Below, piece after piece: positions 11,507-45,386 of a stretch of 64,000 bases of DNA. Every line of letters begins with the position of its first letter. The stretch's first letter is position 1. The notes under the pieces were generated by a model, which worked only from the letters and a program-made list of their open reading frames with translations, searched no databases and had not been told where the DNA came from. Source of the stretch: Methanothrix harundinacea 6Ac (GTDB lineage Archaea > Halobacteriota > Methanosarcinia > Methanotrichales > Methanotrichaceae); contig NC_017527.1 in NCBI RefSeq assembly GCF_000235565.1, forward strand, positions 1,798,001 through 1,862,000. The letters are read 5' to 3'. Position numbers and translations under genes: made by a program.

Positions 11507-11517
11507 AGGAGTTGAAT

Positions 11518-23768: not shown

Positions 23769-23882
23769 CTTACCATGACCTTCGGGTCGTGGCCCCATTC
23801 AAACTCTCCTCGCGGATGGCGGTAATGTATTCGCCACCAATTTGCCTATCCATGGCTGAAAAGTCGTGGCCCCTGTTGAGAC
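23769..23882 (+). CRISPR. Two-repeat degenerate mini-CRISPR with one 41-base spacer
   Basis: The second unit (23846-23882) begins with 28 bases identical to the repeat of the main array and ends TGTTGAGAC instead of ATTGAAAC. The first unit (23769-23804) is exactly 36 bases long, diverged in its first half, and ends GTCGTGGCCCCATTCAAAC, one mismatch to the main repeat. Between them are 41 bases, within the spacer range of the main array (35-44). It lies 8.5 kb from the array without adjacent cas genes, between a restriction gene fragment and a VapBC-like pair. It may be a relic array or a CRISPR-like regulatory RNA. Confidence 0.75.
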
Positions 23883-26745: not shown

Positions 26746-26839
26746 GATACCAAATTCTCCCAATCTCACGGCGGCCATCCAGGGGCGGATGTGGTCTTGA
26801 GCTCGCCCCTTAAAGACTTTGACCGCCCGATATATATGG

Positions 26840-26853
26840 GTTTCAATGGGGCC
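26840..26853 (-). repeat. Fragment of the CRISPR repeat, inverted
   Basis: GTTTCAATGGGGCC is an exact reverse complement of the last 14 bases of the main CRISPR repeat, followed by a short tandem copy of CAATGGGGCC. It overlaps no gene and lies just downstream of the broken nucleotidyltransferase. A 14-base match alone could be chance, but four such traces lie in this island. Confidence 0.4.
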
Positions 26854-26865
26854 TCAATGGGGCCT

Positions 26866-28020: not shown

Positions 28021-29787
28021 CTACGACCGTCCTATCGCCCCTGATGCAACCCTCCTGAGAAAGGCCGATAATCTCCGTTTATCCTTCGGAAAGGACCAGT
28101 CCTTCCCGACCTTCACCTCGGTGAGACAGGGCACCACCTTCAGAATCTCGCCACCTGCCTCCTCCATCACCCTCTGAATCAGCCTCGCCGCCTCGCCGGT
28201 CCGTTTATCCGGCACCTCCAGAAGGATGCTGTCATGGACTGCGTTCACGAGGTTGAAAGCGTCGTGCTCGGGTTTCGTCAGCTCCCTGTAGAGCCTGCCG
28301 AGGGCGATCTTTTGAAGGTCTGCGCCCGTGGCCTGGACTGGCGTGTTGATCAGGGCGTTTCTTTGGTCGGGATCGATGTATCTCAGCCTTCCCAGAGCCG
28401 ATCGAGAGATTTTATAGGTCTTTCTGTCGATTGTTAAAACAGGCGCGCCATTAGTGACCTTTTGCTGCCAGCTTCTCAAGCCAGGATAGGACCTGTAAAA
28501 CCGATAAAGGAACTCCTTTGCCTCATCCTCTGTCAGGTCTGGGAGCTGGCTCAAGACCATATTGGTGCCGCCCCCGTAAATGGTGCCGTAGTTCAGGGTC
28601 TTGGCGATCTGCCTCTCCTCCCCCGAGATCTTCGACTTTTGGAAGATGGCCTGAGCCGTCTGTATATGCGGATCAAGCCCTTTCTTGAAGGTCTCAATGA
28701 GGGTCTCATCTCCGGAGAGAATCGCAAGGAGCCTCATCTCAATGGCAGAAAAATCAGCCTCCACCAGAGACATGTTCGGGGAGGCGACGAAAAGGCTCTT
28801 CAGCCTCGGATCTCTTGGAACCTGCTGGATGTTTGGCTTGGAACAGGTGATGCGACCGCTCCTCCCGCCAAGCTGGGATAGTCTGGGATAGATCCGGCCG
28901 TCCTCAGAAAAAACGAGCCAGTTCTTCGTATGAGCCTCTTTCAGATGAAGTTCCCGATATTTCAAAAGCAGATTTATGAACTCTTCTGCCTGATGTTGCC
29001 GGACCATCTTCTCCAAAAATGGTGCTGAAGTCTTCTCGACATGATATCCAAGACTTTTGATGACTTTCTTTGCATGAGCGGGATTTTTGGGGTTGAAGTC
29101 TTTAATCCCCTTCGACTGCGCATACGATCGGAGCTCTCGTGTCAGCTCTGCCTTCTCATCTCCGAGGCTTTCTGATAGCTTTAGCCCCCCCTTCTGGTTG
29201 AAGCCCATGCCGTTATGCTCCATCTCCACCAGCGCGGGGATGGCATCAAACTCCAGAGATGCGACCTCCGCGAGACCAAGCTTGTCAACGAGGTATCTCT
29301 GCCTGTCGTAAACCGGCTCCAGGATGGTGCAGGCCCTGGCGGCATAATCGAGCTCTTTCGGATCGAGATCGCCGTCTGGCTCCTTTTTCCCAGGGATCTC
29401 ATCCAGATCTCTCCCGAGAAGATCGCTCGCCACCGTCTTCAAAGAGGGATCTCTTTCGGGAAGGCCGTTTCTCAGCAGTTGCCAGGCGAGCATCGTATCC
29501 CAGAGGTTGGAGTACGAGAGCCTTCTGCCCTTCAGGGCTCTGATTAAGCCCAGGCTGAAGAGGAGGTCGTGGCCGACGACTCTGCACTCTGGACTTTCGA
29601 GGAAGGGGACGATCTCGCCGAGAAGGTCGGGGGGAAGGAGGGCCTGACCGTAGTCGCCTGCGATCGATATCGTCTCAAGCCTCGCGGATCGCGGCGCCCG
29701 ACCGCCTGACGTCACCAGATGCAGGCATAAGGTTGAGGCCTCTTTGCTCGGAGTGCACGACCACGAAGAGAGGACTTTTTTGGTCAT
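28021..29787 (-). CDS. polA: Family A DNA polymerase (PolA-like), next to CRISPR adaptation genes
   Basis: A 588-residue family A polymerase without the 5'-nuclease domain. Motif A VEADFSAIEMRLLAIL (Asp 345), motif B RQIAKTLNYGTIYGGG (Lys 396, Tyr 400) and motif C NAVHDSILLEV (Asp 519) are present; motif C has HDS instead of the usual HDE. Residues 20-130 resemble a 3'-5' exonuclease domain, but the expected DxE and second Asp are not seen, so proofreading is probably lost. Family A enzymes are typical of bacteria and viruses and rare in archaea. The gene diverges from cas4-cas1 with 142 bases between starts. A gap-filling role in spacer integration is an attractive inference; ordinary repair or viral origin are alternatives. 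Confidence 0.92.
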   Translation of the reverse strand: MTKKVLSSWSCTPSKEASTLCLHLVTSGGRAPRSARLETISIAGDYGQALLPPDLLGEIVPFLESPECRVVGHDLLFSLGLIRALKGRRLSYSNLWDTMLAWQLLRNGLPERDPSLKTVASDLLGRDLDEIPGKKEPDGDLDPKELDYAARACTILEPVYDRQRYLVDKLGLAEVASLEFDAIPALVEMEHNGMGFNQKGGLKLSESLGDEKAELTRELRSYAQSKGIKDFNPKNPAHAKKVIKSLGYHVEKTSAPFLEKMVRQHQAEEFINLLLKYRELHLKEAHTKNWLVFSEDGRIYPRLSQLGGRSGRITCSKPNIQQVPRDPRLKSLFVASPNMSLVEADFSAIEMRLLAILSGDETLIETFKKGLDPHIQTAQAIFQKSKISGEERQIAKTLNYGTIYGGGTNMVLSQLPDLTEDEAKEFLYRFYRSYPGLRSWQQKVTNGAPVLTIDRKTYKISRSALGRLRYIDPDQRNALINTPVQATGADLQKIALGRLYRELTKPEHDAFNLVNAVHDSILLEVPDKRTGEAARLIQRVMEEAGGEILKVVPCLTEVKVGKDWSFPKDKRRLSAFLRRVASGAIGRS

Positions 29788-29887
29788 CGATAAGACATCT
29801 CCATCGCCGTTTTACTTAATCAATTTCATGCTCAAAGGCCATTTACGGAAAGAGCTCAGAGGTCTGAAAAAAAGGATAAATGCAAAA

Positions 29888-29897
29888 CCTATATATC
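29888..29897 (+). promoter_or_regulatory. TATA box of the cas4-cas1-cas2 operon
   Basis: CCTATATATC lies about 37 bases before the TTG start of cas4-cas1, within the divergent promoter region shared with polA. With GGAGG at 29919-29923 this gives a short leader of about ten bases. Confidence 0.55.
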
Positions 29898-29929
29898 TTT
29901 TTGGGATTCTCTTCGCCTGGAGGCTCACA

Positions 29930-31726
29930 TTGGGAGATAATCTAGGATCAAAATCAAAATCAGAAGGATCTGCCGATGCTCCTCTCAGGCTGATTCCCGC
30001 CCGGATGCTGGCGGAGTTCGCCTACTGCCCCCGGCTCTGCTACATGGAGTGGGTGGGCGGCGAGTTCGTGGACAGCGCCGATACCGTCGACGGGAGGTTT
30101 CAGCACCGCCGGGTGGACTCGGAGGTTGCCAGGGCCGATGAAGACGAACTCCAGGCGATTCATGACAGATCGGTATCGCTCAGCGGCGAGAAGGTGGGGG
30201 TCACCTGCAGGATAGACCTCCTGGAGGGGGAAGGCCGGCATGTGACTCCCGTTGAGTACAAGAGGGGGAGAGCTCCATGCATTCCGGGCGGGGCATACGA
30301 TTCGGACCGGGTTCAGCTCTGCGCTCAGGGGCTGGTACTGAGGGAGAACGGCTATCACTGTGACAATGGGATCGTCTACTTCGCCGCCTCCAGGAAGCGG
30401 GTGCCGGTAGATTTTGACAGAGATCTCGTAAAGCTGACCTTAGACCTGATATCCGACCTGAGGGCGGTGGCCGATGGCGGCGCGGTTCCGCCGCCCCTGC
30501 AGGACAGCCCCAAATGCGTTCGATGCTCCATGGCGGGGATCTGTCTTCCCGACGAGGTGAACCTGCTGCGGGAGATGGACGGGCAAAGCCGAAGAGATGG
30601 AGACGGAGGCGGCGGGCTGATCGGGAAGATCAGAAGGCTTCTTCCGGCGAGGGATGATTCCCTGCCGGTCTATGTGGTGGGTCATGGTCATTCGGTCCGG
30701 AAGAAGGGGGACAGGCTGGAGATTCGGTCGATAAAGAAGGGCGATGATGAAGATGAAGAGAAAGAAGGAAGCGAAGGCCGCACCGGGAGAGGACGGGGGA
30801 AGGGTGAGAGAGACAGCGCGGTGGTGGAGGCCCGGCTGAGGGAGATATCTCAGGTCAACCTCTTTGGAGGTGTAGAGATCTCTACCCCCGCGCTGGTGGA
30901 TCTGATGCAGCGGGGGATTCCCGTCCTCCACTTCACCCGAGGAGGCTGGTTTCAAGGGATGAGCGTCGGTCACACTCACAAGAACGTGGAGCTCCGGATG
31001 AGGCAGTTCGCGTGGGCGGCGGACCGGAACAGGTCGCTATCCATCGCCCGGTCGATCGTGGATGGCAAGATCCGAAACTGCAGGACCCAGATAAGGAGAA
31101 ACGACCCCGAATCTCCCAAAGATGCCCTGGACCGGCTGAGTAAGCTATCAAAAGATGCGGCGAACGCGTCCAGCATGGAGAGGCTTCTGGGGATCGAGGG
31201 CGCGGCGGCGGAGATCTACTTCGGGCGGCTGGAGCACCTGCTCAAAGCCGATCAGGGCTTCACTTTCGCGAACAGGAACAGAAGGCCGCCGAAAGATCCG
31301 GTGAACGCCGTTCTATCCTACCTTTACGCCGTGCTGGCGAAGGACGTCTTCGTCTCCCTTCTGGCGGTGGGGTTCGACCCATATCTCGGGTTCTACCACC
31401 GGCCGAGGTACGGCCGTCCTGCTCTGGCCCTGGACATGATGGAGGAGTTTCGGCCGATCATCGCGGACTCCACGACGATCAATCTCTTCAACAACCGCGA
31501 ACTCACTGATAAGGACTTCATCAAGACGGGGATGGGCGTCTCCATGAAACGTCAGGCCAAGAGAACGGTGCTGGCCGGCTACGAGCGGAGGATGCAGACG
31601 GAGATCGAACATCCCATATTCGGCTACAAGGTGAGCTATCGGCGAGTCCTGGAGGTTCAGGCCCGGCTCCTTTCCAGAGTCATCACCGGCGAGATAAAGG
31701 AGTACCCTGCCTTTTTGACGAGGTGA
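29930..31726 (+). CDS. cas4-cas1: Cas4-Cas1 fusion, CRISPR adaptation
   Basis: A fused protein of 598 residues. The Cas4 part (about 1-200) has an iron-sulfur cysteine in AEFAYCPRLCYMEW, nuclease residues in IDLLEG and PVEYKRG, and the C-terminal cysteines in SPKCVRCSMAGICLPDE. The Cas1 integrase part has the metal-binding Glu in IEGAAAEIYF, His in GFYHRPRYG and acidic residues in LALDMMEEFRP. An acidic then basic low-complexity insert separates the first Cas1 strands. TTG 29930 with GGAGG six bases upstream is the start. Cas4-Cas1 fusions are known mainly from type I-G (formerly I-U) systems, whereas the effector here is III-B. It trims prespacers and integrates them with Cas2. Confidence 0.95.
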   Translation: MGDNLGSKSKSEGSADAPLRLIPARMLAEFAYCPRLCYMEWVGGEFVDSADTVDGRFQHRRVDSEVARADEDELQAIHDRSVSLSGEKVGVTCRIDLLEGEGRHVTPVEYKRGRAPCIPGGAYDSDRVQLCAQGLVLRENGYHCDNGIVYFAASRKRVPVDFDRDLVKLTLDLISDLRAVADGGAVPPPLQDSPKCVRCSMAGICLPDEVNLLREMDGQSRRDGDGGGGLIGKIRRLLPARDDSLPVYVVGHGHSVRKKGDRLEIRSIKKGDDEDEEKEGSEGRTGRGRGKGERDSAVVEARLREISQVNLFGGVEISTPALVDLMQRGIPVLHFTRGGWFQGMSVGHTHKNVELRMRQFAWAADRNRSLSIARSIVDGKIRNCRTQIRRNDPESPKDALDRLSKLSKDAANASSMERLLGIEGAAAEIYFGRLEHLLKADQGFTFANRNRRPPKDPVNAVLSYLYAVLAKDVFVSLLAVGFDPYLGFYHRPRYGRPALALDMMEEFRPIIADSTTINLFNNRELTDKDFIKTGMGVSMKRQAKRTVLAGYERRMQTEIEHPIFGYKVSYRRVLEVQARLLSRVITGEIKEYPAFLTR

Positions 31727-31730
31727 GAAG

Positions 31731-32027
31731 GTGAGAGGACGAAACTGCTATGTGGTGAGCTACGACATAATGGAGCCGAGACGGCTTCAAAAGGTTCACA
31801 AGATGATGAAGGGCTTTGGTGATCCTGTCCACTACTCCGTCTTCCGCTGCGATCTCACCCCCAAGGGCCGGGTGGAGATGATAGCAGCGCTGACGGGTCT
31901 CATAAAGCATGACGAGGACAGGGTGATGATCATCGATCTCGGCCCGGTGGAGGGGATGGCGGAGGATAGGATAGAGTTTCTGGGGGTGCACAGCCCCAAA
32001 GAGAAGGAGAATGCGATCATCGTATGA
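31731..32027 (+). CDS. cas2: Cas2, CRISPR adaptation
   Basis: A 98-residue Cas2 with the typical first strand CYVVSYDIMEPRRLQKVHK carrying the conserved Asp after a beta strand, and SVFRCDLTPKGR in the dimer core. It is the structural partner of Cas1 in spacer integration. It starts with GTG 31731, four bases after the cas4-cas1 stop, with AGAAGG nearby, so both are co-translated. The array leader begins right after its stop. Confidence 0.95.
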   Translation: MRGRNCYVVSYDIMEPRRLQKVHKMMKGFGDPVHYSVFRCDLTPKGRVEMIAALTGLIKHDEDRVMIIDLGPVEGMAEDRIEFLGVHSPKEKENAIIV

Positions 32028-32361: not shown

Positions 32362-35302
32362 CTATCCATGGCTGAAAAGTCGTGGCCCCATTGAAACAAC
32401 CGTAACCAGGCTCCCCTAGAGTAGTGCTTTTCTTCTATCCATGGCTGAAAAGTCGTGGCCCCATTGAAACTTTTAAGCGGGTTTGGAATTCGGCGATTGG
32501 TTTTCTTCTATCCATGGCTGAAAAGTCGTGGCCCCATTGAAACAGCTCCAATTCAGCGAAACGGCATCGGTGCCAACGGCTATCCATGGCTGAAAAGTCG
32601 TGGCCCCATTGAAACTTTGCGCTGACAAGATCTTTGTCGAAGGGTATATCGTTAACTATCCATGGCTGAAAAGTCGTGGCCCCATTGAAACATTATTTGA
32701 AGAAATCGAAAAAATTTCAGAGAAAGAACTATCCATGGCTGAAAAGTCGTGGCCCCATTGAAACTATAGACGATTCCGCCTACTATGATCAACATTGTTG
32801 CCTATCCATGGCTGAAAAGTCGTGGCCCCATTGAAACTCATTTTCCCTAACTTCTCTACCACGATTAGGGGGTACTATCCATGGCTGAAAAGTCGTGGCC
32901 CCATTGAAACAGCCATAGCCTCCTGATGACCTTCCGGCCCCAGACCTTATCTATCCATGGCTGAAAAGTCGTGGCCCCATTGAAACACCTCCGTTCCGGT
33001 TGCAAGATGTCCATCGATGTCTTCCCCAGCTATCCATGGCTGAAAAGTCGTGGCCCCATTGAAACGATAGAAGAGGTAGATCGAAGCCCCCTTCATTGCT
33101 GACTCTATCCATGGCTGAAAAGTGCGTGGCCCCATTGAAACTTGTCAACGGTGAACAACTGGGGGGTACCGCTGAGCCTATCCATGGCTGAAAAGTCGTG
33201 GCCCCATTGAAACATCTACTGAAAATTCAAAAGATGCGTTATAGTTCACTATCCATGGCTGAAAAGTCGTGGCCCCATTGAAACCGAGAGGGCGGCTCGG
33301 CCCAAACCCGCTGAATCGGTCCTATCCATGGCTGAAAAGTCGTGGCCCCATTGAAACATGGGGGCGTCCAGGTTGGCGAGGTCGCCGGGTTTCGCGGCCC
33401 TATCCATGGCTGAAAAGTCGTGGCCCCATTGAAACTGCGATCTCGGCACGGTATTCATCTACCTTATCTGGGAAGTTGCTATCCATGGCTGAAAAGTCGT
33501 GGCCCCATTGAAACGCCGCAACAAATTCCTCTGCCGCGACCAAGACGGGCCTATCCATGGCTGAAAAGTCGTGGCCCCATTGAAACCATAGCGTCATCCT
33601 CCTATGGATTGCCGGAATCGTTCCGGCTATCCATGGCTGAAAAGTCGTGGCCCCATTGAAACTTACAAAACCGTGCCCGCGTTGGTTATACAACGCTTCT
33701 CCTATCCATGGCTGAAAAGTCGTGGCCCCATTGAAACCATTATTTCGCTCCTCAATCTCTCTCGTACGATCAACCTATCCATGGCTGAAAAGTCGTGGCC
33801 CCATTGAAACTCCCTAACACATGGAGATCTATCTTGCTGAACATTTCGGCCTATCCATGGCTGAAAAGTCGTGGCCCCATTGAAACTCAAAACAGCAAGA
33901 CTATAGATGATCATAGCTGTCCTCGCTATCCATGGCTGAAAAGTCGTGGCCCCATTGAAACCGGTCGACGCCGGCCGGAGGATGATCATCTCGACGGACT
34001 ATCCATGGCTGAAAAGTCGTGGCCCCATTGAAACACGATCACCCAGACCTGCGAGGGAGGGCCCCGGGGAGGGACGGCCTATCCATGGCTGAAAAGTCGT
34101 GGCCCCATTGAAACGAAAATAATGGCTTTAGCTTCTTCTAGAACATCCTCTATCCATGGCTGAAAAGTCGTGGCCCCATTGAAACAGAGTGGATATTTTG
34201 ATTGCTTAGAACCAAACCGGAACTATCCATGGCTGAAAAGTCGTGGCCCCATTGAAACTTATCATCCTGAACATCGTCCAGCATGACCACTATCCTATCC
34301 ATGGCTGAAAAGTCGTGGCCCCATTGAAACGTCATCAGACGTCAGCCCCTCCTGTTTTAAGTTCTTCTATCCATGGCTGAAAAGTCGTGGCCCCATTGAA
34401 ACATCTCTAATCTTGAGCAAGCCCGCGCTGACGAGACCTTCACTATCCATGGCTGAAAAGTCGTGGCCCCATTGAAACTGTTTCGGGCTTCCCTAAGGAG
34501 GCCGTCAGCATATTCCTATCCATGGCTGAAAAGTCGTGGCCCCATTGAAACGCCAACCCGACTATCTTATCCAGCATCGCTTTTTCAAGATCGCCTATCC
34601 ATGGCTGAAAAGTCGTGGCCCCATTGAAACATAGTAGCGTGCCCCGTGAGCGCGCAGGATAAAGTTGGTGGCGCTATCCATGGCTGAAAAGTCGTGGCCC
34701 CATTGAAACGTTTACCTTTGGAACCCATATCTTTTGCCAATATTCTTCCTATCCATGGCTGAAAAGTCGTGGCCCCATTGAAACAGGAAGTCCAACACAA
34801 ACTGAATAACCTGTGCGTCTGTGAGCTATCCATGGCTGAAAAGTCGTGGCCCCATTGAAACGGGCGGCCATCAGGCGCAACCCTCAACGCAGATACTTAA
34901 CTATCCATGGCTGAAAAGTCGTGGCCCCATTGAAACCGCACGTATTGAAAAGAAGGTAAACAAGGAGAGAAGCTATCCATGGCTGAAAAGTCGTGGCCCC
35001 ATTGAAACACAAGGGCGATGTCTTCAACCTTGCCGGGCAGATGCCTATCCATGGCTGAAAAGTCGTGGCCCCATTGAAACGATAAAGGCGCCACAACAAT
35101 GATATCATCATAATGACCTATCCATGGCTGAAAAGTCGTGGCCCCATTGAAACTTGATATAGGATGCCGAAATATGACGCAGTGAGCACTAGTATCCATG
35201 GCTGAAAAGTCGTGGCCCCATTGAAACGAATTGGAGCCTATCCATCCCAAATGGATACCAGGTTTGGTATCCATGGCTGAAAAGTCGTGGCCCCATCGAG
35301 AC
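32362..35302 (+). CRISPR. CRISPR array, 40 repeats and 39 spacers
   Basis: The repeat is 36 bases, starting CTATCCATGGCTGAAAAG and ending GGCCCCATTGAAAC; the ATTGAAAC end gives the usual eight-base crRNA 5' handle. I counted 40 repeats with spacers of about 35-44 bases. Most repeats are identical. Exceptions: the repeat at 33105 has one extra G (37 bases), and the two last ones (35192 and 35267) begin G instead of C, the very last also ending CATCGAGAC. Decay at the right end and cas1/cas2 at the left place the leader at 32028-32361. I could not match any spacer to a source. Confidence 0.99.
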
Positions 35303-35367: not shown

Positions 35368-35775
35368 TTATAGTTTTTTAACGAGCTGCTCGGTGAGGGA
35401 ACCCATCCCGGCGGATTCTTTCTCAAGGGTTAGGCTATGCCTGTAAGTTCCTTTTTCAAAATTGAAGACCTTCACCGGAACCCAGTTCTGTAGCCTCGTG
35501 CCTATATAAATCGCAAGATCGATCGGCCCTGCATAGAAGAGGAGAACCTCTGTGACACCGCTCTTCATGGCCAGATCTTTCAACCCGTTTATCTTCACCA
35601 TAACCTCGGGATAGTCCTTGGGCTCCAGCCAGGTATCTCCACTCTTCCAGCTGATGAGCTGCACATCCCAATCTTGATCCTTCAGATAGTTGCCGACTGA
35701 GGCCTCCAGATCCTTACCGATGCCGATAGCTATGGCCAGGGGCCGTTTTGATAGCCCAACCTCCTTTCCCCCCAA
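35368..35775 (-). CDS. SAVED-type cyclic-oligonucleotide sensor half
   Basis: A 135-residue frame from TTG 35775. KRPLAIAIGIGKDLEASV and then EVLLFYAGPIDLAIYIGTRL with VKVFNFEKGTY match the C-terminal half of SAVED domains, which bind cyclic oligonucleotides made by CBASS or type III CRISPR enzymes. The N-terminal half of a normal SAVED is absent. It overlaps the end of the preceding membrane-segment frame by 62 bases; the two frames read as one protein if a run of six G (35768-35773) had five. It is the last gene of the cmr operon, pointing to a role as CRISPR-triggered effector. Domain call is by motif only. Confidence 0.72.
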   Translation of the reverse strand: MGGKEVGLSKRPLAIAIGIGKDLEASVGNYLKDQDWDVQLISWKSGDTWLEPKDYPEVMVKINGLKDLAMKSGVTEVLLFYAGPIDLAIYIGTRLQNWVPVKVFNFEKGTYRHSLTLEKESAGMGSLTEQLVKKL

Positions 35776-35902: not shown

Positions 35903-36207
35903 ACTCGTCCCGCCTTTTCCGAGCTTCCTTGATCTGGATTACCCTCCAGGGTAATGTCTACCACGTCTCCCACCGCCCACTCCCGGCTGTGGGTTGCCAC
36001 CACCACCGCCCCGAGCCGGGGGTCGTAGAAGGCGATCGCCGCCGCGGGCGAGCCGTGGAGGAGGTGGAGCGCCATGCCGTACCGCCAGATCGGCGCTTTC
36101 CCCTCGACGACGACGAGGGACCCGCGGGGGATCTTCGGCAGGGGTGGCAGCGGCTCGGCGGAGGTGATGGGGCCGGAGACGCCGATGGGATAGATGACGA
36201 AGTTCAA
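35899..36207 (-). CDS. csx3: Csx3 (Crn3) ring nuclease
   Basis: A 102-residue protein with the Csx3 signature: GSLVVVEGKAPIWRYGMALH, then AIAFYDPRLGAVVVATHS and GDVVDI. Csx3 enzymes cleave cyclic tetra-adenylate and so switch off type III signalling; they were earlier described as RNA exonucleases. TTG 36207 follows AAGGTG and overlaps the stop of the CARF-like gene, so it is preferred over the longer frame starting at 36231. Its stop overlaps the ATG of the membrane-SAVED gene. Position between two putative sensors fits a role in clearing the signal. Confidence 0.9.
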   Translation of the reverse strand: MNFVIYPIGVSGPITSAEPLPPLPKIPRGSLVVVEGKAPIWRYGMALHLLHGSPAAAIAFYDPRLGAVVVATHSREWAVGDVVDITLEGNPDQGSSEKAGRV

Positions 36208-37187
36208 GGAAACACCTTTTTGAGAGTGCAATTTTGATCCATCTCTTGTTGCCAGAGTATGCCCTTCTCAGCAGCCCATTTCTTCCATGAACTCAGATTG
36301 TTCGGCGAATTGGAATCACCTGAAAGCAAACTCCTTAAGTGGTTCAAGTCTGCTCCGGGCCTAACAAGATTATTTTCGATCACAATAAGCCTGCTACCTG
36401 TCAGCTTTGCGAGATATTGGCTTTTCATGCCCGTCTTTTCAAGCTCTTCTTTGAGGACTTCTAATGGCAATGCGTTGTTGTATTGCTCCATTAGACTGTT
36501 GATTGTATTGGACACCTCACCCCAGCCAAAATCAAATATCGGGAGCTGGAACCATTTAGATAGTAACAGGTCGATTTGGCCTTTAGGGAGTCTCCCCTTC
36601 GGCTTTTCAAGGTCGGGATGGAGAAGATCAATGTCTTGTTCAAAGTAGTAGTAATATCTCGAAATTGCCCCTGATAGAGAGCCTGCCGTCAAAATGGATG
36701 CGTTGATCTGGTTTGTGCCTCCAACCATATTAGCCCAAAGTTCCTTTCCGCCCTTCGTACCTAAGGCATTAACTGTGTGGTATATGACTGGAAGAGCTTT
36801 CTTGAAATCTTGATAATCCACTGCTAGATAGTAGATTTTAGGAAGATCATATTGGTCGAAAAGCTCTCTATGAATATCTCTAATAAATTTGCAGGCGACT
36901 CTAGGAACCGATATTTCCTTACCAGTATTTTTGAACCAGCGGTCCTTAAGATCGCTCCTTCGAGAAAATTTCTTTTCCACTACCTCTCTGGAAGTGAAGA
37001 TGACGATTCCTTCAGGAAAACCTCGAAGGATTCCCTCTTTTTGTCTCCACTCCCCTGAGGTCTCAAAGAACTCGCAAGCTTTGGCCTCGCCTTCTTCGGC
37101 TGCCTTCAAGAGCAGATATATACTGGACGTGGGTACGGTTAAAGCCCCTGGACTGATTCCAAGCCCGCTGATATGCCACACGCCCAT
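36204..37187 (-). CDS. CARF-like protein with possible winged-helix C-terminus
   Basis: A 327-residue protein. The N-terminal 180 residues are Rossmann-like; MVGGTNQINASILTAG resembles the T/V-GGT-K/N-x-M loop that binds cyclic oligoadenylate in CARF domains of Csx1/Csm6. Residues 225-280 (ALPLEVLKEELEKTG, then LAKLTGSRLIVIENN) look like a winged helix. No HEPN Rx4-6H, REase or adenosine deaminase motif is seen. It may be a CARF-type transcription factor or an effector of unknown kind. The gene is 46 bases after cmr6 and overlaps csx3. CARF call moderately sure, output unknown. Confidence 0.6.
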   Translation of the reverse strand: MGVWHISGLGISPGALTVPTSSIYLLLKAAEEGEAKACEFFETSGEWRQKEGILRGFPEGIVIFTSREVVEKKFSRRSDLKDRWFKNTGKEISVPRVACKFIRDIHRELFDQYDLPKIYYLAVDYQDFKKALPVIYHTVNALGTKGGKELWANMVGGTNQINASILTAGSLSGAISRYYYYFEQDIDLLHPDLEKPKGRLPKGQIDLLLSKWFQLPIFDFGWGEVSNTINSLMEQYNNALPLEVLKEELEKTGMKSQYLAKLTGSRLIVIENNLVRPGADLNHLRSLLSGDSNSPNNLSSWKKWAAEKGILWQQEMDQNCTLKKVFP

Positions 37188-37233: not shown

Positions 37234-38250
37234 CTAATGCAGCTGTGCCTCGTAGATCTTCTTCGCTTTCTTCAGTCCGCCCGTCGGACGATCCCAGAGT
37301 TTGCCGTATCTGGCCTTGATATCCGCCAGAATCTTCTCCTTGAGTTCTGAGTCTTCTATCGAGTTCCAGCTCTCGGCTACCTTCAAGGGCATCTCTGTGA
37401 GGACCTTGGACGGATCTTTATTCTGCTCTCTTGCTAGCCGGTCAATCTCCTTATCCAGCCAATCCATAGCAGGCGATCTTGGAACAAACGCCTCAAACCT
37501 GCCGTATCCGACCGCTGTCTTGGCTCCTCCGCCGATTTTATTCAGGGCAACTCTGAGCCACTCTGCGGCCTTCTTGCAGTCATCCCCATCTCTCTGATCT
37601 TCAGGTCTTCTTGGCATTACGCCGAAGAGGAAATCCTGTCCTGCTTCAACGACCAAAAACGGAACGGGTACGGGACTTTGCCAGTCAGCAGGAGGCTCAT
37701 CTCCCTGATAGTAGGGGCCGTAATGAGGGGTCATGACGTCGGCCTTCAATTGCACCTGACTAATTGGGATGGCATCAAGAAAGATGACCGAGCCCACCGA
37801 AGAGGTATTGGAGTCCCTGGGACCAAATATCCGATTAATCGTCTCATCGTTCTCTTCCTCCCAGATCTTAGCCCAGGACCGGACGACACCCTTAACGGAT
37901 GAGCCCGGCAAGTAAGGGGTTCCTAGGGTCTGGTGCCAAGCGAACCCATTCTCTACAGGATGATTTCTTCCTAGACCCGTGACAAACGGCCCCTCTGTCT
38001 TGAGATGCAGGGCAAAGCCTCTGCTGCTGGCGATCAGATTCAATCGGCGCTCCACAATCTCATTAATCAGACGGGGATCTCCCACGGGCTTCTTGGTGAC
38101 GCCCTCGATCCAGCTCGTCTTGCCCTTGTCGCCCAGGCCGTCCCATTTATCCGACCACTGGTCGCAGAACTTGTCGTACCACAGCCCTGCGTTGCTCTCC
38201 CCTGGTCTTCGGGTGATATTCGTCTCAGTCCTATAAATCGGACGAACCAT
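37234..38250 (-). CDS. cmr6: Cmr6, type III-B effector subunit (Cas7 family)
   Basis: About 338 residues with the Cas7-like pattern FALHLKTEGPFVTGLGRNHP, TPYLPGSSVKGVVRSWAK (the GSSVKG loop), and a late glycine-rich stretch GGGAKTAVGYGRFEAF. Cmr6 caps the Cmr4/Cmr5 filament near the 3' end of the crRNA. ATG 38250 has GGGGG about nine bases upstream; ATG 38259 is the alternative. It overlaps cmr5 by about 20 bases. The C-terminal 90 residues are helical and charged. Confidence 0.93.
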   Translation of the reverse strand: MVRPIYRTETNITRRPGESNAGLWYDKFCDQWSDKWDGLGDKGKTSWIEGVTKKPVGDPRLINEIVERRLNLIASSRGFALHLKTEGPFVTGLGRNHPVENGFAWHQTLGTPYLPGSSVKGVVRSWAKIWEEENDETINRIFGPRDSNTSSVGSVIFLDAIPISQVQLKADVMTPHYGPYYQGDEPPADWQSPVPVPFLVVEAGQDFLFGVMPRRPEDQRDGDDCKKAAEWLRVALNKIGGGAKTAVGYGRFEAFVPRSPAMDWLDKEIDRLAREQNKDPSKVLTEMPLKVAESWNSIEDSELKEKILADIKARYGKLWDRPTGGLKKAKKIYEAQLH

Positions 38251-38653
38251 CTTTACCATCCCCCAAATACGCCTGGCTGAACTTCTTGAGCCAATCGAGA
38301 TAGGCGAGAGCCTCCGCCTGGGCTCGGACATAATTTTCTTGGCTGCTATTGACGATCGCCGCCATCAGACCCCCATCTCCTGAATAAGCTTCGCACTCAA
38401 AAAGCCAGCTCTCTACACAATCAAAGAGGGTTTTGTGGGCTCTCTCATCGGCGCTCATCCTATCGCCCTTGGCAAGCCTGGCCGCAGCCAGCTCTCCCGC
38501 CATAGCCTGTCCAAGTCCGTTCATGACGATGGTTGCAGGAAGTCGCTGAACATAGCTTCCGAAGTTCCCGTAATCCTTCTTCTCTGCCAATTTAGTTATG
38601 CCATCCAAGGCATGAGCGGCGCGCTTCTGGCCCAGGGTCTTTTCAGCCATCAT
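38231..38653 (-). CDS. cmr5: Cmr5, type III-B small subunit
   Basis: A 140-residue helical protein: KTLGQKRAAHALDGITKLAE at the start, YGSYVQRLPATI-type centre (GNFGSYVQRLPATIVMNGL), and LAYLDWLKKFSQAYL at the end, all typical of Cmr5. It lines the target-crRNA duplex alongside Cmr4. Two ATG codons in tandem (38653, 38650) follow GGGGG; the gene starts directly at the cmr4 stop. Confidence 0.93.
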   Translation of the reverse strand: MMAEKTLGQKRAAHALDGITKLAEKKDYGNFGSYVQRLPATIVMNGLGQAMAGELAAARLAKGDRMSADERAHKTLFDCVESWLFECEAYSGDGGLMAAIVNSSQENYVRAQAEALAYLDWLKKFSQAYLGDGKDGSSDL

Positions 38654-39502
38654 CTATTCCCCCACAAGCCTTAAGGCGAACCATCCCTGCCCTACTGTCT
38701 CGTTTCCACCCACCTGAAGGTAAGGGCGTTCATCCACCAGTATCTTGACCAGATCGATCGAGCCGTTACCTCGCTCCATTAATAGGTTGTAGAATAGTGA
38801 ATCTTGGGCCAATGTCTCTTCATACCAAAGGTTCTTGCTGGTCTTTGTATTCTCATCCAAAACGTTGCGAGCACTGATAGGTAGCCCGTAGCTAGCAAAC
38901 CACTTGAAGTCGTCGTCGCTTAGTACAATCAGCTGTCTAGCCAGCCTTTCTGCTGAGGCTCGATTTGGCATCAGCTGATCAATTGCCTCGATGACAGATT
39001 TATCAGCCGTTTCAACTATCTTGAACTCTCTCTCTTCCAGGAAAATTTTACCAGATCCCTCTCCCAGTACGGTTCCATTCTCCGGCTTTTTATCCGTCTT
39101 TGGGATTTTGAGTTTTTTCTCAAATCCGGAACGGTGAATATCTCGACTCAGCCTCTCAAGAATATTGGGACATGTAGCCCATTTATAATGCCCAGTCAGA
39201 CTGCGAACAGGAAGCAGAAGAAGCCGTGCATCCGAGACGATAAGATCCCCGGCACCATCTTGCTTCCCGAACGCCCTTTCTACCTCCTCGCTCTGAGCCG
39301 CTTCCTCTCCATTCTCAGATCTTTTCCCCGGCCACTTATCCCTGGCCCGATCCTTCAAGGCTCCTTTTAGGCTTGAGCCTACAATCACGGGATACTCGGT
39401 AATCGATTCACGCGCCACGGGCAGGTCCACAAAGCCCGTCGAGCGGCCGGCGCCGGGATGGACCGGCGTCTCTGCCAACATTCCTATGATTATGCTCCTC
39501 AT
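38654..39502 (-). CDS. cmr4: Cmr4, type III-B backbone and target RNase (Cas7 family)
   Basis: A 282-residue Cas7 protein. HPGAGRSTGFVDLPVARES contains the loop with the catalytic Asp (VDLPV) that cuts target RNA every six bases. YPVIVGSSLKGALKDRA is the G-S-S-x-K-G element, and the C-terminal QVGGNETVGQGWFALRL is the usual glycine-rich end. All expected active-site features are intact, so target RNA cleavage is likely. It is 12 bases downstream of cmr3. Confidence 0.95.
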   Translation of the reverse strand: MRSIIIGMLAETPVHPGAGRSTGFVDLPVARESITEYPVIVGSSLKGALKDRARDKWPGKRSENGEEAAQSEEVERAFGKQDGAGDLIVSDARLLLLPVRSLTGHYKWATCPNILERLSRDIHRSGFEKKLKIPKTDKKPENGTVLGEGSGKIFLEEREFKIVETADKSVIEAIDQLMPNRASAERLARQLIVLSDDDFKWFASYGLPISARNVLDENTKTSKNLWYEETLAQDSLFYNLLMERGNGSIDLVKILVDERPYLQVGGNETVGQGWFALRLVGE

Positions 39503-39514
39503 ATGATCACCTTT

Positions 39515-40651
39515 CTATTGTTCATCATTCCAGGAACCGATAGCTATCTCCCCAAATCCGAACTCGCAGTACTCGCCGATTTTTTTTCCACCTATTTTTC
39601 TGATCTCTTCGGCGCGGTCGCCGTCAGCTTCACAAAACCAGGTAGAACCCCCAGGCAAGAACGGCTTTAGAGGCAGGGGCTCTCTGTTAACCGAATCCCA
39701 CCCACCGATCCAAACCGGTCGCTCCAGACAGGCTGATACAACCCTGGAGCCTGTGATCCCAGGAACCTCTTCTCCCGGGCCTGGCCAGGTGCATTTGAAG
39801 TGGGCAGGGGTGAGATGGGTTAATGTAAACCGGATATTGCCGTCAGAAGAGGGTATTAGCTCAGCAGCATCCGGGATTTTTATTGTGCCGTCCATCATAT
39901 CGGCATAGGCTAACCCTCCCTCGCCACCGAAAGGCAAAGTCGATTCAAGGTCCAATCCTGCTTCAATACCGTCGACCTCTACCGCAAGACTTACGCCCTG
40001 CATCAATCGCACCCTAGAGATGGAGTAAAGAAGCCCCTCCAGGGCGGTCCTGTTCTTAAAGTCCCTTGCTATGCCGACGAGAAACTCAAAATCCCAGAGA
40101 TCTTTAGCTTTGATCGGAGATATTTTGCTCAAATCGCCTCCGGTTAAGACGACTTCTAAGTCTTTCAAAGTGAGATAAGAGCCAAATAGGGATTTCTTGC
40201 CCTGGGCGTCTTTTGAAGAAGGCAGCCGGACCCCATCTCCAATATCGCAATCCACCTCTTCGCCCGGCCTCAGAAGGCACAACTCTTCCCATTTGCTTTC
40301 ATCGGATTCGGATTCTTTTCCCAGGAGATGGAGGGGAGCTGGAACTAGAAAATCTGACCTGCCTTCCTTTTCCCTGAGCAGATACGGTCCCCTAAAGCTC
40401 AGTGGAGCCAATTTTTGACCATTGCCCAGCTTTGCTTTGATCTCAGATGGCCAGTCCCCTTTGCCATTCCATCCCTGGTCTCTGGCAAGGTCTCTGGCAA
40501 ACGAAGCCCTTATGGCCCCGACCGCCGTCACCGCAAATGGCGGGAATAAGCTCTTGATATCAGCTAGTGTAGACTCCCCCTGGTTGTAAGGCCTTCCATC
40601 TCGGAAAAACCAACTCCCGACCGGAGTCAGCTTATATGCTTTGAAAGTCAT
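39515..40651 (-). CDS. cmr3: Cmr3, type III-B crRNA 5'-handle binding subunit (Cas5 family)
   Basis: A 378-residue Cas5-like protein: PVGSWFFRDGRPYNQGES at the N-terminus, PPFAVTAVGAIRASFARDL soon after, and glycine-rich LPFGGEGGLAYADMM in the C-terminal half. The start overlaps the cmr2 stop (ATGA). It binds the 5' handle of crRNA and contacts Cas10. Length and motif order are normal. Confidence 0.94.
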   Translation of the reverse strand: MTFKAYKLTPVGSWFFRDGRPYNQGESTLADIKSLFPPFAVTAVGAIRASFARDLARDQGWNGKGDWPSEIKAKLGNGQKLAPLSFRGPYLLREKEGRSDFLVPAPLHLLGKESESDESKWEELCLLRPGEEVDCDIGDGVRLPSSKDAQGKKSLFGSYLTLKDLEVVLTGGDLSKISPIKAKDLWDFEFLVGIARDFKNRTALEGLLYSISRVRLMQGVSLAVEVDGIEAGLDLESTLPFGGEGGLAYADMMDGTIKIPDAAELIPSSDGNIRFTLTHLTPAHFKCTWPGPGEEVPGITGSRVVSACLERPVWIGGWDSVNREPLPLKPFLPGGSTWFCEADGDRAEEIRKIGGKKIGEYCEFGFGEIAIGSWNDEQ

Positions 40652-42570
40652 TCGCTCCCTCCTTCAGCGGTCTGTGAGAGGAATTTGATCAGCATCGCTG
40701 CATCGGTGCTAAGAACTGTTTTGTTAACTCCACTCTTATTGTGGGACTTGTAGCTCAGCTCAAGAAGAGATCCCACCTGTTTCTCCGCGTCTTCTCTGCT
40801 TACTTTTCTATCCCTAGACTTCATGTATTCCGCAGTCAACAATGGCAGCGGGTCGAGACCCTCGATGAGATTCGCATAATTGCCTGGCTTCAGAGATTGA
40901 TCTCCTGATAGTATGGCCAGATCATCTCTCATGCCATAAAAGAAGGACTTGGAGAATTTCTTATGAGGTCCTTCCCTGACCTTAAAGACCAGATCATCGA
41001 TGCGATCCCTGCTTTCTTCATCGGTTAATCGATCCCAGGTCACCGTCCACTGGCAGTATTTGCCGCTATTCTTCAATACGCTGACTGCAATGCTACCCCG
41101 GCCGTTCTTGTCCTTGGCCACATCATCTAAGATATAATGAGCCTCTCTCATCACTGTGCTCAGAGGGATGTGGTAATGCGAGAATACCAGTCCTGCTGAT
41201 ATCGTCGCTTTGACTTCGGGGATAACATCTTCGAAGCGTTTCTCATAACTTTCCGATAGCTCTTTAGCACATTTTAGAGCTTCAGGCATGGGAAGCATTG
41301 CTAGAACGTCGTCACCTCCTGCATAGATGGTGACTCCTTCTCTAGTTTTCACGATGTCGCGAACGTCTTTTGTAAAAGCTGAAAGGGCCTTAGTGATCAG
41401 GTCTTCTTTATCTTTGTAGTCGCCCATCAACTTCCCCATGTTGTCTCCGTCCATCAGAAGCATAGCATAGAAAGGGGTAGGTCTAAACTTAGCTTTCTCA
41501 GACAGTGCTCTCAGCTGGATTTTGAGTTCCTTTCGTGTTTTCTTGTCCTCATCAGGTTCTTCCGCGCAATTTTTCAGAAATTCCGGTGTATCATCAAAAG
41601 GGGTTCGCTTACAGTCGATTAGCGCGTTTTCGAAGTAGAAATTGCCGTCCAGATCCAGAAACCTATTATGCCTATCGCAAAAAGATCCGATCTGCCTGGA
41701 AATCCCCTTTCTCTCGGCACCCGACGCAGCGTTTAGAATATGGCCTGCATAATCATAGGCGTCTTCGGAAGCTGCATCAATTACGGATTTTAACCATGGA
41801 ATAGCTGCCACATATGGCGTTGAAGGCCAGTTCCTTGTTTCTACGCCCCAATCTTTGGCCATCGTTGAGACCGGGAATAACCGTTTAATAAGGGCTAATG
41901 CACAGAGCCTTTCACCTTCTCTGATGTCGAGCTTGCCGAGTTTTCGTTTGCCGTTTATTCTTTGAAAAGACAGACTCTCCCAGAATTTGTTCTGGATCCT
42001 ACTCTGCTTCGAACGGACAAAACCGGATAGCTCCTGCCAGTCACCCATCATAGTGCAGTGATCACCAGGCTCTTCTTCGAGATGCCCAATTATTCTCCAG
42101 TTCTTTCTGGAGTTCATTGACGAAATATCTGGAGCTGCAACCCAGTTTATCTCCCAGAAATTCTTAACCTGACGGTCCCAGATCATTTCGGTTCCATAGC
42201 CGTTTTCAGCAACATCTACTACATACTCGTCCCAAACGGCTTCGGCGATCTCCATCCATCGGTTCTGCACCATCTTTGCCGCAGAGCTGGCAACGCTCTT
42301 CGGATCATCCTCAACGATCGCCTCGAAACGATTAGGTATAGAGCCGATGATGGGAGCATTACCTTCCCTAGATCTTCGGATCCAGGCCAGGAGAGGATCG
42401 TCTGTGACATCTGGAATAGTGATCTGCCCACCTTTGTCCATAACCTCGCTGATGGCACATCCCGAGAGATACGACAGCAAGAATGACCCGCTCCAAAGGT
42501 CGCGAGTTCGCCTGGCTTGGGCCACAAACCCTTGGACGGGTCCCAGGCTGAAGAATATTTTATCGCTCAT
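40648..42570 (-). CDS. cmr2: Cmr2/Cas10, cyclic oligoadenylate synthase, HD domain absent
   Basis: A 640-residue Cas10. It begins at once with SLGPVQGFVAQARRTRDLWS, which in full-length Cmr2 follows an N-terminal HD nuclease of 200 or more residues; no HD motif is present. The first palm motif is LLMDGDNMGKLMG (near 371) and the second TIYAGGDDVLAML with GGDD at 418-421, both intact, so synthesis of cyclic oligoadenylates on target binding is expected, but single-strand DNase activity is not. The D4 helical domain closes the protein. Start and stop overlap or adjoin neighbouring cmr genes. Confidence 0.95.
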   Translation of the reverse strand: MSDKIFFSLGPVQGFVAQARRTRDLWSGSFLLSYLSGCAISEVMDKGGQITIPDVTDDPLLAWIRRSREGNAPIIGSIPNRFEAIVEDDPKSVASSAAKMVQNRWMEIAEAVWDEYVVDVAENGYGTEMIWDRQVKNFWEINWVAAPDISSMNSRKNWRIIGHLEEEPGDHCTMMGDWQELSGFVRSKQSRIQNKFWESLSFQRINGKRKLGKLDIREGERLCALALIKRLFPVSTMAKDWGVETRNWPSTPYVAAIPWLKSVIDAASEDAYDYAGHILNAASGAERKGISRQIGSFCDRHNRFLDLDGNFYFENALIDCKRTPFDDTPEFLKNCAEEPDEDKKTRKELKIQLRALSEKAKFRPTPFYAMLLMDGDNMGKLMGDYKDKEDLITKALSAFTKDVRDIVKTREGVTIYAGGDDVLAMLPMPEALKCAKELSESYEKRFEDVIPEVKATISAGLVFSHYHIPLSTVMREAHYILDDVAKDKNGRGSIAVSVLKNSGKYCQWTVTWDRLTDEESRDRIDDLVFKVREGPHKKFSKSFFYGMRDDLAILSGDQSLKPGNYANLIEGLDPLPLLTAEYMKSRDRKVSREDAEKQVGSLLELSYKSHNKSGVNKTVLSTDAAMLIKFLSQTAEGGSE

Positions 42571-42603: not shown

Positions 42604-43788
42604 CTAAATAACTTTCACTGCATCTGGAAATCTTGGTTTTCCATATCCGTTTTTTCCATCTAGGAATTCGTGAAGAACGCTGTAATCAACGCTTTGAGGA
42701 ACAACGGAGCTGCCGACGCGAATCCTCTCTCCAGGAGGAAGAAACTCTGAGGGAAAGATCGCCGGAACAGCTGCATACTGCCCATTATTCAACTCCTGAA
42801 TATGGATGAATAAAGGACTGCCACGCCTCTCTAGTCTAGCTGGCTTCACATCAACTTTTTCTTGATAGCTGGAGAAGTAGTAATTGTGGGGAAGGCCAAA
42901 GACGACACGGCGCGGATGGGTGCTCACTCTCGTTTTAATGGCGTCTGCTGCCAGGTCGTGATCATCCTTGAAGTTTCTCTCGGAATTCTGATCGTTTACT
43001 TTGCCGTTTCTTCCCCAGCTTCTATACAACTGCATTGCCTCTCCTACCGTGTTGAGAAGCCTAAGGGGATCAGATCCCTTTTCAACTATGTCTACTCTGG
43101 TCAGATCACTGTATGCAGTATAGGGAGGTAGACCGGAGTAAGCTTTAATGTTGTAGTCCCTGAAGAACGATCCAATTTTCAGCTTCAGATCCTCAACATC
43201 GTTAGGCATTCTGAAGAGGATTTCATCTCCGAGTTTAAGCTCTAACAGATTGAAGGACCCGTATCCTTTGCGGGATCTTGATCCAAGGCCTCCGAAAAGG
43301 CCCATGGCGATCAGTGCAGATGTTACGTTCTCGACATCGTCGTCGATTGTGCCATTCCTGAAGAGAAGATTTAGTGTCCCATCAAATGGATACTTCAGGC
43401 AAGACCGGAGGATTTGTCCCTCTTTAGTATTCCTTTTCCGGCTGGGAACTGCTTCTACAACACCATAACCAAGATAGCGAGCACCAGGGCCTACCGGTTC
43501 GCCATTTGCATACTTCAGGATGGGGTCCTTGTATTGGCCGATATTTTCGTCCAGCTTCAGACTTAAATGCACCTTGGCCTGTCCAACGTCACGTCCAGCA
43601 CTTCCAAAGATATGCGATTCTTCATCTCTTACCCTGCTAACAGAACCAAGCCGCCCCAAGGCCAATGCTCGCCACCAGAATCTCAATACCCCTTTGATGC
43701 TTGGAACCCGAAGTTCAGCTTGAGATTTATCCGACCCGGACATGAAAAGTGGCGTAACAACACGAAATTTCGCTTCAAGTTCGATCAT
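42604..43788 (-). CDS. cmr1: Cmr1, type III-B subunit (Cas7 family), first gene of operon
   Basis: A 394-residue protein with two Cas7-like halves: VVTPLFMSGSDKSQAELRVP and SIKGVLRFWWRAL at the N-terminus (the typical LRFWWRA of Cmr1), then IAMGLFGGLGSRSRKGYGSF. It caps the 3' end of the complex. ATG 43788 follows AGGAGG at ideal distance. It is the first gene of a nine-frame operon, with a TATA-like GGTATATATACG at about 43895-43906 on the minus strand, about 110 bases upstream. Confidence 0.94.
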   Translation of the reverse strand: MIELEAKFRVVTPLFMSGSDKSQAELRVPSIKGVLRFWWRALALGRLGSVSRVRDEESHIFGSAGRDVGQAKVHLSLKLDENIGQYKDPILKYANGEPVGPGARYLGYGVVEAVPSRKRNTKEGQILRSCLKYPFDGTLNLLFRNGTIDDDVENVTSALIAMGLFGGLGSRSRKGYGSFNLLELKLGDEILFRMPNDVEDLKLKIGSFFRDYNIKAYSGLPPYTAYSDLTRVDIVEKGSDPLRLLNTVGEAMQLYRSWGRNGKVNDQNSERNFKDDHDLAADAIKTRVSTHPRRVVFGLPHNYYFSSYQEKVDVKPARLERRGSPLFIHIQELNNGQYAAVPAIFPSEFLPPGERIRVGSSVVPQSVDYSVLHEFLDGKNGYGKPRFPDAVKVI

Positions 43789-44336
43789 TATCAGACCTCC
43801 TGTAAGATGTCAAAATAAAATTGATTATAAATAAAAACAAAAAAAATATGAAAACATGACAAATAGCTTTGATTAGGTTAAATACCATCCGTATATATAC
43901 CTTAGGCCCAGATATACATGCACGAGACCTATCAAAACGTACACTAGGCCATGCTCTAAGTTGGTTATTACAAGACCTCCTCTCTCTTTTCCGCAATCGA
44001 TTGTACATTATTACCAATACTCCTCTAGAACTCGAAGTTCTCTGCCTCGATAATTAACGAATACTGATTATTGATCTACCTCCTATATCGTATAATCAGG
44101 TTTCTAAAGTATAAAGATAAATACCTTTCCATGATACTTAAATTCTAATGGGATATATAAATTAATTATCGTCCATCATTTAAAAAAAACAATAATGGAC
44201 GATCATTGGACGAAATCGAGAGTTTCAATGGGGCCACGGCCCAATCGCAGCCATGGAACTCACAATCTTGCATATTCTCATTCTACTATATTTATCTAGC
44301 GGACGATTATGATGGATTACTTATCGGCCAAACATG
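43789..44336. other. AT-rich region upstream of cmr1
   Basis: About 550 bases with much lower GC than the genome and no credible gene; a minus-strand frame (43775-44017) is just AT-rich noise. It contains the cmr promoter, an inverted repeat ATCGTCCAT/ATGGACGAT (44168-44176 and 44195-44203) followed by a further TGGACGA half-site, and an inverted CRISPR-like repeat at 44222. Confidence 0.6.
44222..44259 (-). repeat. Solitary inverted CRISPR-like repeat upstream of the cmr operon
   Basis: GTTTCAATGGGGCCACG equals the reverse complement of the last 17 bases of the main repeat, then nine unrelated bases, then CAGCCATGGA, the reverse complement of the other end. So both ends are kept and the middle has changed. 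It is pointed in the direction of the cmr operon, 430 bases before cmr1. A relic, a recombination scar or a crRNA-like regulatory unit are possible. Confidence 0.65.
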
Positions 44337-45212
44337 CTATTTGGATCGATCTTCAACCACAAACCCCCCCATCCCAAAATGCGCCCCGTACCCCACCGCC
44401 ACCGGCCCCTGGACGGGCGCGGGAAACTCGATCCGGAAGCCGTATCCTGCAGACCCCGCCCTCCTCCCGTCCCCCCTGTTTCGCGCCCGCCGGAAGCTCG
44501 ACCAGCCGACCCTCTCCCCGGCGATCTCGGTGAAGGAGACCGCCTCGACGGTCACCGGCTCGGGAAACCCGGCGAGGCCCAGGAGCCGCAAGAGCTCGTG
44601 CTCGGGGCTTCCGATCTGTAAACCCGAGGGGTCGAGCTTCGGCGCCCCCGCCCGGGTCGCCTTGGGGTATCTGGTGGGGACAAAGGGGGTCCGGGAGGTC
44701 CAGATCCGCGACTCGGCGAGGAGGGGGGATCCGCCTCCGGCCGGATCGAACCCGCCGAAGTCGCCGGGGTGGCCGAGGGCGAGGAGGGTGAGGTCGGCGA
44801 CGATCCCATCGCCCCGGACTTCCCGGAGGGCCTCCAGGGCGGCCCTTTCGCGAGAGCCGAAGCCCCCGGGGGCGTAGACGGTGACGTGAGTCACCTCGCC
44901 TTCCTTGCCCCGCCCCAGGGCCTCGACCGACTCGGGGAGGATGAAGGCGTGGCCGTGGCCGACGAGGGGCCTTCCGGCCTCGTCGCAGCCGGTGAAGGTC
45001 GCCGAGCCGTCGGAGAGCTCCACCAGGGCGGCGTGGACCCGCTCCGCCAGGGTGATTCCGTCGGTGAGCTTCGGCGGGCGGCCCCCGACGGCGTAGCGTC
45101 CGACGGTTGGCGGATGGTCCGGGCCCTGCCGGATCTCGGAGACATCTCTCGGTGAATATCGAGAATATCGGGGGGAGCGGCTCCGGCTCCTCACGCCAAA
45201 ATCGAAGGTCAT
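44337..45212 (-). CDS. csb2: Csb2 C-terminal (Cas6-like) domain protein, stand-alone
   Basis: A protein of about 291 residues matching the C-terminal two-thirds of type I-G Csb2 (Cas5-Cas6 fusion): DHPPTVGRYAVGGRPPKLTD, GRPLVGHGHAFILPESVEA, VTHVTVYAPGGF, IWTSRTPFVPTRYPK and the closing GPVAVGYGAHFGMGGFVVED. The Cas5-like N-terminal part is missing; the frame upstream of ATG 45212 (to 45386) has no similarity and is Ser/Gly/Arg-rich. GHGHAF and the glycine-rich end suggest a Cas6-like RNase. It is the only candidate pre-crRNA processing enzyme seen in the locus. Start uncertain; GGAGG lies only two bases before the ATG. Confidence 0.8.
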   Translation of the reverse strand: MTFDFGVRSRSRSPRYSRYSPRDVSEIRQGPDHPPTVGRYAVGGRPPKLTDGITLAERVHAALVELSDGSATFTGCDEAGRPLVGHGHAFILPESVEALGRGKEGEVTHVTVYAPGGFGSRERAALEALREVRGDGIVADLTLLALGHPGDFGGFDPAGGGSPLLAESRIWTSRTPFVPTRYPKATRAGAPKLDPSGLQIGSPEHELLRLLGLAGFPEPVTVEAVSFTEIAGERVGWSSFRRARNRGDGRRAGSAGYGFRIEFPAPVQGPVAVGYGAHFGMGGFVVEDRSK

Positions 45213-45386
45213 CGCCTCCTGAGATGGACCGGATCCGCCTCCAAAAGAGGGGCTGGTCGATGGACCGCCGCGACCCTGCCCCTCCCGGGACTTGCGCGAG
45301 AAAGCTCCTTCTCCAGGCCTGACTGCGCTCAATTCTCCCTCCTCACCCCGAGGTGAATGGTGGCATGATCCGCCCTGCCATCCCAT

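Follow-up and report, generated by a model that had tools for sequence, protein, structure and literature searches.

A free-standing Cas6-like half of the type I-G protein Csb2 is predicted to make crRNAs for type III-B CRISPR systems in Methanotrichaceae

The archaeon Methanothrix harundinacea 6Ac carries, upstream of a type III-B CRISPR operon, a gene for the stand-alone C-terminal (Cas6-like) domain of Csb2, and this gene, csb2C, very likely encodes a free-standing Cas6-type endoribonuclease that derives from type I-G Csb2 and is predicted to make crRNAs with the AUUGAAAC handle for the Cmr complex. The gene occupies positions 44337..45212 on the minus strand and encodes a protein of 291 aa; unless a locus name is given, coordinates refer to the window, the whole 64,000-nt stretch of contig NC_017527.1 (positions 1,798,001 to 1,862,000) that was analyzed.

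The earlier note on this DNA had proposed that csb2C corresponds to the Cas6-like part of Csb2 without its Cas5 half, and profile comparisons bear this out. The NCBIfam model TIGR02165 (Csb2) matches the product with 77.2 bits (cut-off 45) over profile positions 251-489 of 492, and PADLOC assigns the product to its Cas56g models, whereas a Pfam search and the canonical Cas6 sequence models of NCBIfam, Pfam, and PADLOC yielded no matches to it. Because TIGR02165 matches the genome at this single place, with the C-terminal half alone, and profile positions 1-250 (the Cas5-like half) have no match anywhere in the genome, a separate Cas5 half is absent. The mechanically delimited open reading frame (ORF) around csb2C spans positions 44337-45386 (349 aa); the ATG at 45212, the start codon chosen in the earlier note, is closely preceded by AGGAGG and gives the 291-aa product. 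The in-frame extension upstream (45213..45386, minus strand) is of low complexity, lies outside the profile match, and is probably 5' untranslated; the segment of the ORF before the domain is of low complexity and poorly conserved relative to a close relative (G011), and the exact position of the start codon is uncertain. Comparison with the G011 homologue (84% amino acid identity) gave a dN/dS of 0.27 for csb2C, indicative of purifying selection, and this value, together with a histidine that is invariant in an alignment of 87 homologues, argues against a chance profile match.

The invariant residue, His278 (87 of 87 homologues), lies within the sequence GYGAHFGMG, an instance of the GxxHFGxG motif, and is of the catalytic type; His88 is retained in 86 of the 87. 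In Thioalkalivibrio Csb2 (TsuCsb2), the H503A substitution is inactivating, the isolated C-terminal domain (CTD; from R262 onward) cleaves repeats alone, and the cut falls at an unusual site 4 nt 3' of the stem, yielding an 8-nt handle (PMC9638904; Shangguan 2022). Since H503 lies about 243 residues past the R262 boundary and H278 about 248 residues past the start of the domain in csb2C, the two residues are probably equivalent, as judged by spacing from the domain boundary alone. Structure prediction based on 48 sequences (pLDDT 95.5, pTM 0.92), which supersedes an earlier model from 16 sequences of moderate confidence, yielded the two-RRM (ferredoxin-like), Cas6-resembling fold anticipated for the csb2C product. 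The predicted fold class is clearly that of Cas6 and the structural match distant, because the top matches in the PDB are mostly Cas6 proteins, with a best E-value of 2.4e-4 and TM scores of about 0.3-0.5. A sequence search of solved structures with csb2C returned chance matches to repeat proteins alone, and comparison of the model with a viral structure library gave no match.

Downstream of csb2C, on the same strand, lies a complete cmr1-6 operon with Cas10 (type III-B), which confirms the proximity to III-B genes pointed out earlier. It comprises cmr1 (42604..43788; TIGR01894, 57 bits), cmr2/cas10 with a GGDD motif read in the sequence (40648..42570; TIGR02577, 165 bits), cmr3 (39515..40651; Pfam PF09700, 235 bits, its NCBIfam match being under the cut-off), cmr4 (38654..39502; TIGR02580, 186 bits), cmr5 (38231..38653; PF09701, 106 bits), and cmr6 (37234..38331; TIGR01898, 155 bits), all on the minus strand, as are the genes for a CARF3/Csx1-type ancillary protein (36204..37187; PADLOC CARF3, 430 bits) and a 135-aa SAVED-domain protein (35368..35775; NF033611, SAVED4 in PADLOC). 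The plus strand carries a CRISPR array (32362..35302) with 39 intact 36-nt repeats, CTATCCATGGCTGAAAAGTCGTGGCCCCATTGAAAC, and a degenerate last repeat, a type I-G cas4-cas1 fusion (29744..31726; NF049935 cas4g_cas1g, 737 bits, cut-off 560), and straight after the latter a cas2-like ORF (31719..32024), recognized by position and sequence as an open frame whose start is not settled. Elsewhere in the window, two degenerate repeats, the first resembling the repeat of another species (G004), flank a spacer-like stretch (23770-23882, plus strand); an isolated GGCCCCATTGAAAC without a hairpin (26840-26855, minus strand) adjoins a TATA-like run located upstream of the ORF spanning 26293-26778; and a 1348-aa protein (53087-57133, minus strand) contains many TPR-like repeats and C-terminal membrane segments.

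The genome measures 2.57 Mb in two contigs, is 99.9% complete, and contains one CRISPR array; exact or near-exact repeat ends are confined to the window, bar one site elsewhere with two mismatches. A genome-wide search for canonical Cas6 with TIGR01877, PF10040, and PF01881 gave no matches, extending to the whole genome, for these three models, the observation that no other Cas6 was visible. Nothing exceeded the cut-off for Cas3 genome-wide, and no I-G effector genes were seen near csb2C, whose annotated neighbours are the cmr genes.

The window repeat is predicted to fold into a hairpin with an 8-bp stem and a 4-nt loop (-10.7 kcal/mol), outperforming 200 of 200 shuffles, and the 12 nt after the stem read CCCC and then AUUGAAAC. 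A cut made before the 8-nt handle would thus be offset from the stem by 4 nt in the 3' direction, matching the position reported for Csb2 (PMC9638904), and this combination of hairpin, 4-nt gap, and 8-nt type III handle lends strength to the earlier suggestion of how the handle would be generated. In a comparison of 27 repeats, stem pairing was preserved in 99.5% of cells, both partners had changed at 7 of the 8 pairs, and no slid version of the stem approached the real one; the six repeats of stand-alone loci, taken alone, displayed the same trend in stem conservation. Arrays beside stand-alone csb2C end in AUUGAAAC, with AAAC in 7/7 genomes, whereas those beside full-length Csb2 end in AUUGAAGC, with AAGC (once AAGT) in about 33/33 (Fisher p about 5e-8, the handle and hairpin counts not being phylogenetically independent). 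Two genomes (G030 and G025) contain both kinds in separate loci. AUUGAAAC also serves as the handle where csb2C is absent, at the related III-B loci of genus g9, with Cmr proteins about 39-59% identical to those of the window; their arrays, where seen beside the III-B loci, have an unstructured repeat ending in ATTGAAAC, and the genomes carry a PF10040 Cas6. The window repeat combines the retained hairpin geometry of type I-G with a type III handle.

We propose that in an ancestor within Methanotrichaceae, Csb2 lost its Cas5 half, leaving a free-standing C-terminal nuclease. Csb2C would bind the hairpin of the repeat, with its 8-bp stem and 4-nt loop, in the pre-crRNA and cut 4 nt 3' of the hairpin base, generating the 8-nt AUUGAAAC 5' handle; the crRNA would then be passed to the Cmr (III-B) complex, which would use this handle, and spacers would probably be acquired by the I-G-type Cas4-Cas1/Cas2. 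Cleavage, cut position, transfer to Cmr, and spacer acquisition are inferred, whereas the homology, domain content, phylogeny, synteny, repeat structure, and handle association are observed directly. The locus would be a chimera, because I-G adaptation genes, an I-G-type hairpin repeat, and a processing enzyme derived from I-G are combined with a III-B effector and a type III handle. Among the alternatives, it is unlikely that Csb2C additionally stays on the 3' hairpin of the crRNA as a Cmr subunit, as Csb2 does in the I-G Cascade. The 3' remnant of the repeat is generally trimmed from III-B crRNAs, and Cas6 is not known to be a subunit of the Cmr complex. In favor of such a subunit, csb2C adjoins cmr1, and tight binding of the Csb2 CTD to the hairpin after cleavage has been reported (PMC9638904).

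The pairing of csb2C with type III genes recurs across the family. Stand-alone csb2C lies upstream of cmr1, on the cmr strand, at ten further Methanotrichaceae loci (L032, L033, L035, L036, L037, L038, L039, L041, L042, and L043), in line with the recruitment by III-B that had been proposed from the window, and it nearly abuts or overlaps cmr1 in L038, L039, L041, L042, and L043. The Cmr proteins at the ten loci form two sets, about 45-60% and about 20-35% identical to those of the window. The Cas10 adjoining csb2C in L041 is of the III-C type; in L049, csm3, csm4, and csm5 (III-A) lie beside a csb2C-Cas6 fusion; and in L047 (5211-12042), csb2C neighbours a divergent III-D-like module with III-D-like RAMPs and a short Cas10-like protein (533 aa). 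No cas effector gene was found near the stand-alone gene in L044, L045, and L048. Speaking against the proposed role, the genome-level association with Cmr3 is modest: Cmr3 is present in 10/18 genomes with the stand-alone form versus 7/32 without it (p = 0.028; excluding genus g9, p = 0.0012; kinship uncorrected in both cases), and the rest of the 18 include some of the III-A and III-D-like loci and those with no effector gene nearby. Several of the host genomes are drafts, and some also carry full-length Csb2 or canonical Cas6, which could act in trans; G000 and G037 combine the stand-alone form and III-B with neither a PF10040 Cas6 nor a full-length Csb2.

TIGR02165 has matches in 23 of the 50 genomes of the order, and in 18 of them the C-terminal half occurs without the Cas5 part. 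Across the 238 genomes of the class, the sole match outside the family is a full-length Csb2, and within the class the stand-alone form is restricted to one family, Methanotrichaceae. Homologues outside the family in a wider collection are nearly all full-length, with two exceptions, L129 and L094. Both are short homologues, and neither supports a second III-B recruitment: in the former (Akkermansia), csb2 is split and its Cas5 half lies in the neighbouring frame, and the latter (Desulfohalobiaceae) is an orphan, none of the ORFs listed around it being a recognisable cas gene. A contig labelled Micrarchaeota (L060) also encodes the stand-alone form, with about 86% identity to the protein of the window, which may reflect a binning error or a recent transfer. 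Three natural fusions join stand-alone Csb2C to a C-terminal canonical Cas6 (L040:3662-5530, L046:101-1975, and L049:944-2782), with PF10040 matches at all three places and support from PADLOC Cas6, and so bring two crRNA nucleases together in one protein.

When 87 C-terminal domains were placed in a maximum-likelihood tree, drawn with a midpoint root, the 20 stand-alone and fused forms constituted one group (support 100/98), the sister of which consists of full-length Csb2 proteins of Methanothrix and one from Thermoplasmatota (joint group 99/96); both are nested among the full-length Csb2 proteins of other archaea and bacteria. This nesting suggests that the stand-alone form originated when the Cas5 half was lost, and not that a fusion came later, in agreement with the domain loss postulated earlier. 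The reverse course, with a stand-alone ancestor that was subsequently fused to Cas5 to give Csb2, is hardly credible given the well-supported nesting of the clade and the nearly uniform full-length state of homologues found outside the family, even though Cas6 enzymes are usually separate proteins.

Alternatively, csb2C might be a decaying remnant of a lost I-G locus, with the array as I-G debris and a III-B complex that either depends on host RNases for its crRNAs or receives none. The I-G type of the Cas4-Cas1 fusion and the repeat hairpin, the lack of any I-G effector gene seen nearby, csb2C fragments in some relatives, and the broken two-repeat leftover in the window would all accord with such decay. 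We nevertheless regard it as very improbable, given the dN/dS of csb2C, its invariant active-site motif, a single old clade with repeated cmr linkage, the 39 uniform repeats of the array, and a handle altered away from the I-G form.

The interval between csb2C and cmr1 contains a solo repeat-like element (44222..44258, minus strand) consisting of an 8-bp hairpin, CCCC, and ATTGAAAC, followed by a 32-nt guide-like tail and a T8 run (44182..44221, minus strand). Degenerate solo repeats of the same geometry, on the cmr strand, occur in this gap in three species, those of the window, L033 (about 9690-9760, minus strand), and L037 (about 11465-11530, plus strand), each with a hairpin and ATTGAAAC and each leading into a unique tail of 30-odd nt and a terminator-like end; none was found in 13 other intervals around stand-alone genes. 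The tails are complementary to downstream sense RNA at 22/25 positions in L037 and 17/20 in L033 (0/300 shuffles each) and at 15/17 in the window (4/300 shuffles), where the pairing may be a simple hairpin because the target is immediately adjacent to the guide; in all three, the guide lacks a match over its 5' part. Short hydrophobic ORFs, possibly encoding small membrane proteins, lie near the targets (L037, 11720-12020; L033, 9240-9560; window, 43880-44010), with weak mutual similarity. We tentatively raise the possibility, which we hold to be well short of probable, that Csb2C also processes a solo crRNA whose 3'-matched guide directs Cmr to silence either a short hydrophobic ORF or the leader transcript of cmr, leaving Cas10 unfired. 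If true, type III systems would have, in the solo crRNA, their own counterpart of CreTA/CreR, and the csb2C-cmr locus would be addictive or self-regulating. The CreTA/CreR ectopic-repeat RNAs are known for type I and V-A effectors (PMC9458426, PMC12737573); the elements described here resemble them in that a lone degenerate repeat, followed by a guide-like tail of its own, sits in the interval separating cas6 from the effector genes, and differ in their type III-B setting, in comprising one repeat, and in being candidates known from sequence.

If our main reading is correct, an effector subunit of a type I system became, through natural domain loss, an independent enzyme that processes crRNAs for type III systems, and the repeat changed accordingly, keeping the I-G hairpin and acquiring a type III handle. 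Such a system offers a clean test of which part of a repeat the nuclease recognizes and which part the effector does, and it would explain how crRNAs are supplied to III-B loci in which no cas6 can be recognised; annotation would miss csb2C or call it a broken I-G gene. The family-wide occurrence of the stand-alone form, its III-A, III-C, and III-D-like company, and the descent of the repeat and Cas4-Cas1 from type I-G go beyond what the earlier note had proposed. Searches of the open-access literature turned up neither a naturally occurring stand-alone half of Csb2 nor a CreTA of type III.

Compared with known systems, csb2C resembles I-G Csb2 (TIGR02165/Cas56g) in its C-terminal sequence, the histidine of the GxxHFGxG motif, and a repeat with a hairpin, a 4-nt gap, and an 8-nt handle, but it has no Cas5 half, lies beside III-B, III-A, III-C, or III-D-like genes, and is associated with AUUGAAAC rather than AUUGAAGC. 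Like canonical Cas6 (TIGR01877, PF10040), it is a separate gene with a predicted Cas6-like fold and, presumably, the same job, whereas its product has no match to those models and its repeat forms a hairpin, as opposed to the unstructured repeats at related III-B loci. The closest parallel is the isolated TsuCsb2 CTD, which is in effect the engineered equivalent of csb2C and cleaves repeat RNA alone (PMC9638904); that protein is a laboratory truncation, whereas csb2C is a natural gene present in many genomes.
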